Shown here: in pieces, positions 21,005 to 23,588 of the stretch | How the letters are laid out: every line of letters begins with the position of its first letter | Numbering within the stretch: position 1 is the first letter of the stretch | DNA from: Acidilobaceae archaeon | GTDB lineage: Archaea; Thermoproteota; Thermoprotei_A; Sulfolobales; Acidilobaceae | NCBI GenBank assembly: GCA_027082825.1 | Contig: JALWTO010000029.1 | Span: forward strand, 1-60,954 | Direction: 5' to 3' | DNA: 60,954 nucleotides | Program-made: the position numbers and the translations under genes | Notes under the pieces: generated by a model | Told to the model about the DNA's origin: nothing | Database searches by the model: none | Seen by the model: only the letters and a program-made list of their open reading frames with translations

Positions 21005-21093
21005 TTCAAACTTCTCGGATATCCTGCTTATGTATCAAGCTCCTGAACTTATCTCCAGCAGAGGCGAGGAGGGGAAGAAGGATTCTTGGAATT
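21005..21093 (-). repeat. source copy of the 89-bp fragment shared with 5245-5333
   Basis: Encodes the C-terminal end of the FdhE-like protein including its stop codon. Two mismatches in 89 positions against 5245-5333. This copy is read in a natural-looking sense (RIPRILLPLLASAGDKFRSL), so it is the likelier source. Confidence 0.88.
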
Positions 21094-21755
21094 CTTATAA
21101 CCAGGTCTGGATCTAATATTATCTTAGCCTTAAATCCACAATCTTGACAGACAAAGAGTCCAACCTTCATCTCCTTGTCTGTAAATACTCCTAAAGAAAC
21201 AGGATTCTCACTACCACACTTTGGACATACTAGTTTATTCCTAGAGATTATCCATGTATATCCACAGAAGGGACATATCATTCTATAACTTCCATCGGGC
21301 CACTTGACAATAATATCACTTTCATTTCCACAAATAGGACACTTGTAATCCCTTATCTCTCTCACTCCATGTATCTCTTCATGAGCTCTGGCATATGTTC
21401 TGGCTATGGCCTGGATTATAAGTATAATTATCCTTGTTCCATTAGTATCTGATCTTCCAGCAAGCAGATTATTAAAAGCCTCTTCAGGTTTTTCGACGTT
21501 ATTTCTTATCTTCAACTCATCAGCGAACTTATAGTAAAATTCTTTAACAACCTTTTCAGAAACTTCTGAGGCCAGGTCCTCAGGTTTAAGGTCTTTTCTA
21601 ACAGCCTCTTTTGCCTTAGGAAACAATTCTCTTATAATTTTAAGTTGATTCTTCTCAATAGTAACAGCTTTTTCAAAAGGGATATCCAACTTTAACATTC
21701 TTCTTATTCTATTTAGACCATCTTTAAAGTCGTCAAGTTCATTAGTATGGTCCAA
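21006..21755 (-). CDS. FdhE-like zinc-ribbon protein
   Basis: The 249-residue protein ends in four CxxC pairs at residues 139/142, 161/164, 177/180 and 203/206. The pattern C-x2-C-x3-W then a basic residue before the next CxxC, and a final CQDCG followed by a hydrophobic KIIL strand, resembles FdhE, an accessory protein of formate dehydrogenase maturation. The N-terminal 135 residues are helical and lack a signal peptide. No formate dehydrogenase gene is in the window. It is divergent from the permease fusion 49 bp away. Its last 29 codons are present as an 89-bp copy at 5245-5333. The family call is by pattern and moderate. Confidence 0.62.
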   Translation of the reverse strand: MDHTNELDDFKDGLNRIRRMLKLDIPFEKAVTIEKNQLKIIRELFPKAKEAVRKDLKPEDLASEVSEKVVKEFYYKFADELKIRNNVEKPEEAFNNLLAGRSDTNGTRIIILIIQAIARTYARAHEEIHGVREIRDYKCPICGNESDIIVKWPDGSYRMICPFCGYTWIISRNKLVCPKCGSENPVSLGVFTDKEMKVGLFVCQDCGFKAKIILDPDLVIRIPRILLPLLASAGDKFRSLIHKQDIREV

Positions 21756-21804: not shown

Positions 21805-23481
21805 ATGGATACGTTCTCATATTCTCTAGCCAGGAGAATAGACAGAGGCACAACGACATTGAACAAGAGAAGGATAGGATTTCTTGAAGCCTTTACTATA
21901 GGAGTAGGTGGGATGATAGGTGGTGGAATATTTGCGGTATTAGGACTCAGCGTTTCATTGACTAGATATGCGGCTCCTCTAGCCTTCCTGATCTCAGGTC
22001 TTGTGGCTTTATTGACTGGATATAGTTATGCAAAGCTCTCAACAAGATATCCAAGCAGAGGAGGTACCATAGAGTTCTTAGTGAAGGCTTTTGGAACCGG
22101 CATACTGGCTGGTGGACTAAACATTCTACTCTTCATAAGCTATACAGTAATGATAGCTCTTTATGCATTTGCTTTTGGTCATTATACAGCAGCAGGCTTT
22201 GGGTTAAATGAGCATTTGGCTCAATTTTTTTCGCTCTTGGTGATAATAGTTTTTGTTGTTGTTAATGCATTTGGAGCCTTTGTAAGTGGTAAGGTTGAAG
22301 ATATGCTGGTTATGGTCAAGCTTGGAATATTGATTTTGGTTGCAGGCACAGGGTTTCTTTTTGTGAAATTTTTGAGGCTATCTCCATCAAACTGGCCTGG
22401 TATGGGAGATATAATTGCTGGAGGAATGATAATATTTTTGGCATATGAGGGTTTTGAGTTAATATCAAACGCTGCTCAGGATGTTTATGATCACAGGGTC
22501 ATACCGAAGGCTCTTTATGCTTCAATATTGACAACTCTCTCGGTTTACATTTTAATAGCCATAGTTACAGTTGGGGTATTACCTTTAAGTGAGGTTATAA
22601 AGGCAAAGGACTATGCGCTTGCAATAGTCGCTAAACCTGCATTAGGCAACATAGGTTTTTGGTTAGTTGTAATAGGGGCATTGCTCTCAACCTCAAGTGC
22701 AATAAATGCCACACTTTATGGTACTGCAGGCATAACATATTTGATATCAAAAATGGGCTATTTACCAAAGGAACTAGGAAAGCATCTCTGGAAAGAGGCA
22801 ACCGAGGGCTTAATAATTATAGCAATAATATCCTCAATTTTTGTGCTGAAAGCACCTCTAGAGATAATTTCGGCTGCTGGGAGTGCGGGCTTTCTAACAA
22901 TATTTATGGCGGTAAATGTCTCTGCCTTCAGGCTTAGGAATGAGATAAAGGCAAATGGGGTCATAACTATTGTTGCGACAGTACTTTCAGCAATTGCATT
23001 AATCTTTCTGCTTTACAATCAAATAGTCACAACACCTATTGGTGTATTAACGTTCCTTGTGTTGTTTTTATCAAGCTTTCTCGTAGAATATCTTATAAGA
23101 AGGATTAGCGGAAGGGAGTTAAGACATCACGTGGATGAGAGGCTTGAAAATAGAGAAGGGCTTCTAAGGGGTTGGAAGGAGTGGTTACCCACTATAATTA
23201 AGGAGTTAGAGGCTTCACTTAAAAAGGCAGAAATATACCTTATAGGGAGCTATGCTAGAGGAGAGTTAGGTCATGACATAGATTTGTTAATTGTTGAGAA
23301 GGGCAGTAGAAGAAACATCAAGGAGATCTTGGATGTATTGGAAGATATATTAAGAAGAAAGGGTCTATATGTTTCACATCCCCTTCACATACATTATATA
23401 GAAGAGAAGGACTTGAAGGAATATAAGAGAAGGAGCAAAAAATTGGTGAAACTTACATCAGATAGGAGGAACAATTTATAG
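21805..23481 (+). CDS. APC-family amino-acid permease fused to a nucleotidyltransferase domain
   Basis: Residues 25-430 form a 12-helix APC transporter: the helix-1 motif GVGGMIGGGIFAVLG at 33-47 marks the substrate and sodium/proton site. After a short linker, residues 465-558 form a cytoplasmic minimal nucleotidyltransferase domain with the signature IGSYARGELGHDIDLLIVEKG: G481-S482 and the metal aspartates D491 and D493. A serine usual before DID is a histidine. The third position falls in HIHYIEE, similar to archaeal MNT proteins with a histidine-containing strand. The reading frame is continuous, with no stop between the parts. The ATG at 21805 lies just after TATTTATATGG, so the mRNA may be nearly leaderless. 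Substrate and any modified target are unknown. Confidence 0.88.
   Translation: MDTFSYSLARRIDRGTTTLNKRRIGFLEAFTIGVGGMIGGGIFAVLGLSVSLTRYAAPLAFLISGLVALLTGYSYAKLSTRYPSRGGTIEFLVKAFGTGILAGGLNILLFISYTVMIALYAFAFGHYTAAGFGLNEHLAQFFSLLVIIVFVVVNAFGAFVSGKVEDMLVMVKLGILILVAGTGFLFVKFLRLSPSNWPGMGDIIAGGMIIFLAYEGFELISNAAQDVYDHRVIPKALYASILTTLSVYILIAIVTVGVLPLSEVIKAKDYALAIVAKPALGNIGFWLVVIGALLSTSSAINATLYGTAGITYLISKMGYLPKELGKHLWKEATEGLIIIAIISSIFVLKAPLEIISAAGSAGFLTIFMAVNVSAFRLRNEIKANGVITIVATVLSAIALIFLLYNQIVTTPIGVLTFLVLFLSSFLVEYLIRRISGRELRHHVDERLENREGLLRGWKEWLPTIIKELEASLKKAEIYLIGSYARGELGHDIDLLIVEKGSRRNIKEILDVLEDILRRKGLYVSHPLHIHYIEEKDLKEYKRRSKKLVKLTSDRRNNL
23474..23481 (+). promoter_or_regulatory. TATA box for tRNA-Gly
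   Basis: ATTTATAG about 30 bases ahead of the tRNA 5' end, overlapping the last codons of the permease fusion gene. The spacing suits transcription starting a few bases before the mature tRNA. Confidence 0.6.
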
Positions 23482-23509: not shown

Positions 23510-23588
23510 GCGGCGGTCGTCTAGCCTGGACTAGGACGCCGGCCTGCCAAGCCGGAGGTCCCGGGTTCAAATCCCGGCCGCCGCACCA
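23510..23588 (+). tRNA. tRNA-Gly (GCC anticodon)
   Basis: A complete cloverleaf can be drawn: acceptor GCGGCGG with CCGCCGC, D stem GTCT with GGAC, anticodon stem CCGGC with GCCGG around the loop CTGCCAA (anticodon GCC), variable loop AGGTC, T stem CCGGG with CCCGG and loop TTCAAAT. Discriminator A is followed by an encoded CCA (23586-23588). No intron. It sits at the left border of the glycan locus, a common integration target, but I found no second copy of its 3' end in the window. Confidence 0.97.

Follow-up and report, generated by a model that had tools for sequence, protein, structure and literature searches.

The window considered here is a stretch of 60,954 nucleotides from an Acidilobaceae archaeon (contig JALWTO010000029.1), and one of its open reading frames raises an unusual question: does a single polypeptide really join an amino-acid permease to a nucleotidyltransferase (NTase), and, if it does, what would such a domain do on a transporter? 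The original prediction described a complete 12-helix APC transporter that continues without a stop into a minimal NTase domain with both metal aspartates. Each part of that description holds for the window protein. The reading frame contains no internal stops, Pfam matches both domains, and an AlphaFold2 model of the entire protein (pLDDT 90.6, pTM 0.91) contains 12 transmembrane (TM) helices; both aspartates, D491 and D493, lie in the motif GSYARGELGHDIDLL of the C-terminal domain. The features of the gene are collected in Table 1.

The near-leaderless ATG start proposed for the gene is probably wrong. In both L003 and L004, which are sister species, a TTG codon follows immediately after a stop codon and aligns with the TTG at position 21859 of the window, and residues 1-20 are modeled with pLDDT <50, which applies to no other segment of the reading frame. 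Because of these two observations, TTG 21859 is probably the start codon, and the product is probably a protein of 540 aa with a short leader rather than one of 558 aa.

Table 1. Features of the permease-NTase fusion gene (window coordinates).
Feature	Position	Strand	Basis
Whole open reading frame, permease-NTase fusion	21805..23481	+	558 codons
Probable start codon TTG, residue 19	21859..21861	+	Aligns with the forced TTG of L003/L004; pLDDT <50 in residues 1-20
APC/ApcT permease domain, residues 20-432, 12 TM helices in model	21862..23100	+	PF13520; ApcT profile and Foldseek matches
K172, equivalent to ApcT K158 (proton-coupling lysine, Na2 position)	22318..22320	+	Alignment; invariant
R378, in predicted cytosolic TM10-TM11 loop	22936..22938	+	DSSP of model; tracks the NTase active site
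Junction between the domains, conserved: last part of TM12 plus two linker helices	23095..23217	+	Alignments, model
Minimal nucleotidyltransferase fold; strands 475-480, 492-498, 527-533; helices 505-518, 534-543	23218..23433	+	PF01909, 1ylq, AlphaFold2
GS of G-loop, G481 and S482	23245..23250	+	G481 invariant in archaeal alignment A2
DxD metal motif, D491 and D493	23275..23283	+	Both D in every active-type member; invariant in A2
HPLHIH third-strand site, H525/H528/H530	23377..23394	+	528 is the third metal-ligand position; H530 nearly invariant

Distribution and Origin of the Fusion

Homologues were sought in related genomes, in 398 genomes of the phylum, in species-level genome contigs, and in the phyla of the bacterial and archaeal carriers. 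About 90-100 distinct homologues encode the same two-domain protein, full-length and in one frame. The carriers belong to the Thermoproteota (Desulfurococcales-type), Archaeoglobi, Aquificota (Hydrogenothermaceae and Desulfurobacteriaceae), Thermodesulfobacteriota, and Campylobacterota (Nitratiruptor-type), the finer groups being taken from record titles; we take these lineages to be thermophilic. Single records binned as WOR-3, Heimdallarchaeota, and Micrarchaeota also match the fusion and may be binning errors. Since the architecture recurs in this form, a chance or assembly join of two genes is excluded, and the conserved single-frame homologues likewise rule out a sequencing error or frameshift. 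The concern that relatives might always encode the two domains as separate genes, with an error at the junction in the window, falls away, because the homologues are fused; the proposed survey of other genomes for the same architecture gave a positive answer.

Two fused copies are damaged. One (L176, 3998-5581; G656:C1) carries an in-frame stop codon within its permease portion, with a second APC gene, of 750 aa, directly upstream; the other (L025, 865-2453; G020:C9) is split over several frames, through frameshifts or poor assembly.

In a quick tree of the permease domain, with SH-aLRT values and no bootstrap as support, the fused proteins form a single clade of 107 rows, one of them a broken copy, with an SH-aLRT of 98; this clade arises from bare permeases, which indicates, at the level of sequence, that the fusion arose once from such permeases. 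Bare orthologues of ~420-520 aa and 40-48% identity are found in other genomes of the Archaeoglobi and Thermodesulfatator phyla, and no NTase of the fusion type was found near them among the bare loci that were fetched.

The Permease Domain

The permease domain matches Pfam AA_permease_2 (PF13520) over residues 24-410 with an E of 8e-34, above the cut-off, and its closest solved relative is ApcT, MJ0609 (profile E 4e-100; Foldseek match to 3gi9 with E 6e-25, TMt 0.91). The ApcT lysine Lys158 is cited for a proton-coupling role (PMC12764776), and its counterpart K172 does not vary among the fused proteins and the near bare permeases. Judged by alignment and model, the window permease has a LeuT-type fold and is a predicted ApcT-type, H+-coupled amino-acid transporter; it is related to the TIGR00909 (2A0306) subfamily but is not a member (180.6 bits vs. 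an NCBIfam cut-off of 556.8). It shares with ApcT (PDB 3gi9/3gia) the permease domain and the proton-site lysine, whereas ApcT has no C-terminal NTase and the TM6 sites differ (YEGFE vs. YMGFG). Residues E215, E218, and N222 are common to fused and near bare permeases, and E215 and E218, both in TM6, are invariant; because these residues are shared, the transport substrate was probably left unchanged by the fusion. At two loci, bare ApcT-like permeases, drawn from two different bare clades, are encoded in tandem (L147, 3968-6603; L148, 3962-6624) and possibly form a heteromer.

The two invariant glutamates hint at a charged substrate, and the NTase domain lies on the cytosolic side of the membrane. 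NTases of the PF01909 type include aminoglycoside NTases, which are among the matches of the PDB search that found the free-standing NTase AF0614. The domain might then nucleotidylate an imported amino acid or amine, in a manner resembling group translocation, but we consider this quite improbable: bare orthologues have the same transport-site residues without the domain, bacteria retain the transporter after losing the catalytic site (see below), and no pathway genes are conserved alongside the fusion.

The Nucleotidyltransferase Domain in Archaea

The C-terminal domain, a minimal NTase of the Pol-beta superfamily, matches Pfam NTP_transf_2 (PF01909) over residues 463-519 (E 2.4e-8; 34.7 bits vs. 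a cut-off of 21) and AF0614 in the PDB (1ylq) with an E of 1e-7; in the AlphaFold2 model the NTase block has a pLDDT of about 83-94, with well-defined strands and helices. Homologues were sorted as active-type by G481, D491, and D493, which excluded a single archaeal-type sequence (L067). An alignment of 56 active-type archaeal domains (A2), with a mean column identity of 41%, has only four invariant columns, G481, D491, D493, and H530; the invariance of the first three is partly due to the sorting, in which H530 and position 528 played no part. Of the 74 active-type sequences, 39 have D at position 528, 35 have H, and none has any other residue; this position aligns with a glutamate of AF0614 at the third metal-ligand position. 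In the antitoxin MntA, D71 is the third aspartate ligand (PMC7641770), and by analogy position 528 is a putative third metal ligand. The archaeal pattern is consistent with selection on a functional metal/nucleotide site.

The spacing of the G-loop is GSX10DXD in 73 of the 74 active-type homologues; the window protein is the 74th and has GSX8DXD. Because of this short loop, and because residue 528 is a histidine rather than D or E, activity can be assumed with less certainty for the window copy itself than for its relatives. A disrupted metal site, the other concern attached to the original prediction, is absent from the window protein, in which the two metal aspartates are intact, but is the rule in a large bacterial clade, so that catalysis would be inessential to the architecture in general.

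Loss of the Catalytic Site in Bacteria

The bacterial version comprises 31 degenerate sequences, assigned to bacteria from the record title in those cases that carry one, which form one clade (SH-aLRT 94) that adjoins Pyrolobus-type archaea and is nested among archaea; the fusion most likely passed from archaea to bacteria. L067 is a further degenerate sequence and lies outside this clade. Among the 32 degenerate members, D491 is present in none and D493 in four. L055, a sequence titled as a WOR-3 bacterium, falls among the archaea and its site is of the active type; for these reasons it is probably misbinned.

The fold has outlasted the site. Profiles of the bacterial (A3) and archaeal (A2) domains are homologous with a probability of 99.9 (E 1e-35), and an AlphaFold model of the Thermodesulfatator domain has MNT/NTase structures as its top matches (2rff, 7bxo, 8xeh, 8xeo, and 1no5, with 1ylq at rank 8), at a probability of 1.00 though an E of only 4e-3. 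Pfam is mostly blind to the bacterial version: at E <= 0.01, PF01909 is matched by all 56 archaeal members but by 6 of 30 bacterial ones. The domain also changes faster in bacteria, with a C-terminal identity of 0.50 vs. 0.77 in archaea at a permease identity of 85-97%. Because it stays in frame, and because dN is well below dS (about 0.25 vs. 1.0-1.3) when close pairs whose sites are unsaturated are compared, the bacterial domain is retained as a protein without the metal site.

A domain that persists after losing its active site could serve the permease structurally. The residues R432, D444, L447, and E451 of the junction are nearly invariant in archaea and bacteria, in both groups the helices of the junction are conserved more strongly than any other part, and the presumed thermophily of the carriers would suit a module that stabilizes or oligomerizes the permease, perhaps at high temperature, its catalytic residues being an ancestral remnant. 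This explanation seems unlikely to us, since a remnant would not hold exactly the active-site residues invariant in archaeal domains that are ~30-40% identical.

Possible Coupling of the Site to the Permease

One permease residue follows the state of the NTase site. In a whole-protein comparison, R378 is present in 71 of the 72 active-type proteins readable at this position, in 1 of 32 degenerate ones, and in 3 of 15 near bare permeases; the exceptions are L067, a degenerate protein that retains R378, and L016, in which R378 is missing and the site is of the active type. On the branch where R378 changed, several further permease columns changed too, and the joint loss of R378 and the active site reflects very few independent events. 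R378 could contribute to the NTase site.

A stronger proposal is that the domain, together with R378, covalently links NMP to a cytosolic region of its own permease or of a neighboring protomer and so switches transport, the bacterial proteins forming a pseudoenzyme series. When active-type and degenerate members are compared, no tyrosine, serine, or threonine of the permease is lost along with the active site, apart from exchanges of S to T or T to S. Since no conserved hydroxyl residue disappears with the site, automodification of a fixed acceptor is weakened, and a self-nucleotidylating transporter is in our estimate rather doubtful.

Relation to MNT Antitoxins and Gene Neighborhood

The free-standing NTases closest to the fused domain adjoin genes for HEPN proteins (PF05168), and archaeal free-standing relatives have the same third strand as the fusion, hP-x-[ED]-x-H; on these sequence features, the donor of the domain was probably an archaeal MNT antitoxin. 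A tree of the NTase domain has too few columns to place the donor, and a single clade of fused domains is neither rejected nor established by it (p-AU 0.34). MNT antitoxins (MntA, 7bxo; Legionella pneumophila MNT, 8xeh/8xeo) and AF0614 (1ylq) share the NTase fold and the GS..DxD motif with the fusion. The fusion differs from them in being carried on a permease without a HEPN partner, in having D or H where they mostly have E or D, and, in the window copy, in the X8 rather than X10 loop.

This kinship could mean that the fused domain, tethered to the membrane, works like an antitoxin and targets a HEPN ribonuclease in trans, its nearest free-standing relatives being the MNT partners of PF05168 proteins. 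HEPN profiles, however, have no match in the window genome (G000, 84% complete) or in a sister genome (G003, 98%), and a third genome (G252) has one marginal match. No HEPN gene lies directly beside a fused gene in the loci that were fetched; a single-sequence search, limited in its reach, detected a HEPN-like gene in L071 only, ~3 kb from the fusion, where it is paired with an NTase of its own. With the site conserved in genomes that lack HEPN matches and no HEPN gene adjacent, we regard action in trans as highly improbable. The absence of HEPN matches from G000 and G003 makes the permease the obvious partner of the domain. One archaeal genome stands out in its HEPN content: G051, a contig of 1,843,267 bp, has 19 HEPN and 17 NTase matches, whereas related fusion carriers have none or one HEPN.

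No neighboring gene is conserved across the fusion-bearing lineages, and the neighborhood offers neither a substrate clue nor conserved pathway genes. It had been noted that the FdhE-like neighbor in the window gives no target, and the lack of conserved neighbors agrees with this. The gene in question (21006-21755, minus strand) is divergent from the fusion gene and encodes a zinc-ribbon protein with several CxxC pairs, whose FdhE match is weak (E 0.009, far below the cut-off). A tRNA-Gly (GCC) gene lies directly downstream of the fusion gene at 23510-23588.

A Proposed Regulatory Tail on a Transporter

The reading that we favor, with a probability of about 0.5, is that the domain is a cis-acting, nucleotide-dependent regulator of its own permease, probably catalytic in archaea and a pseudoenzyme in bacteria. 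The archaeal module, that of the window protein included, would bind Mg-NTP on the cytosolic side of the permease and control the attached transporter in cis, plausibly by nucleotidyl transfer, and R378 of the permease would possibly be situated at or near the NTase site. In bacteria the catalytic site would have decayed, the module staying on as a non-catalytic pseudo-NTase scaffold or as a ligand-binding regulator. The original suggestion of transport control by the NTase domain is plausible as far as regulation goes; its version with NMP placed on the permease is weakened as regards a fixed acceptor, as described above.

A permease with a cytosolic tail of regulatory type is already a known kind. 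Soluble tails of this type have a precedent among relatives of the fusion, because an APC paralogue in G748 (L211) carries two Usp stretches at its C-terminus; several other genomes of the Archaeoglobi phylum encode APC homologues of 740-770 aa that look like this APC-USP protein. The window protein itself has no match to Usp in Pfam. The two kinds of protein have in common an APC permease followed by a cytosolic alpha/beta domain after TM12, but the Usp fold is unrelated and longer (about 310 aa vs. about 110 aa), and the permeases are ~33% identical. KimA and other transporters of the APC superfamily are controlled by a nucleotide, c-di-AMP, through cytosolic domains. KimA shares with the fusion the concept of nucleotide control on an APC-fold transporter; it differs in belonging to another permease subfamily, in its c-di-AMP ligand, and in having no NTase.

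USP-type tails are thought to act as nucleotide sensors that gate transport. By the same logic, the NTase fold could bind ATP or another nucleotide, report energy or stress status, and gate the permease allosterically without any transfer. The Usp-tailed paralogues in the same genomes, the retention of the bacterial fold without a metal site, and the lack of an acceptor residue that covaries with the site all agree with a purely non-catalytic sensor, but DxD and H530 are strictly invariant in archaea, which seems beyond what ATP binding alone would need, and we regard this as a less likely alternative.

A fixed-phrase search of the open-access literature found no description of the NTase tail, its wide conservation, or its conversion to a pseudoenzyme. 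If the domain is active, the protein would be, as far as we found, the first membrane transporter to carry a nucleotidyltransferase within its own chain, and would illustrate how a toxin-antitoxin module came to be recruited to the control of nutrient uptake. The bacterial clade, with its dead site and kept fold, would be a natural experiment in the passage from enzyme domain to pseudoenzyme regulator. A cultured species with the fusion gene probably exists; Thermodesulfatator autotrophicus S606 (L087) carries the bacterial version, which makes the claim directly testable.

In the APC-USP locus of G748 (L211, 1590-4521; G748:C1:1448089-1451020), the permease gene is convergent with an MNT/HEPN pair and overlaps it by a few bases, so that the permease and a free-standing MNT are encoded next to each other.
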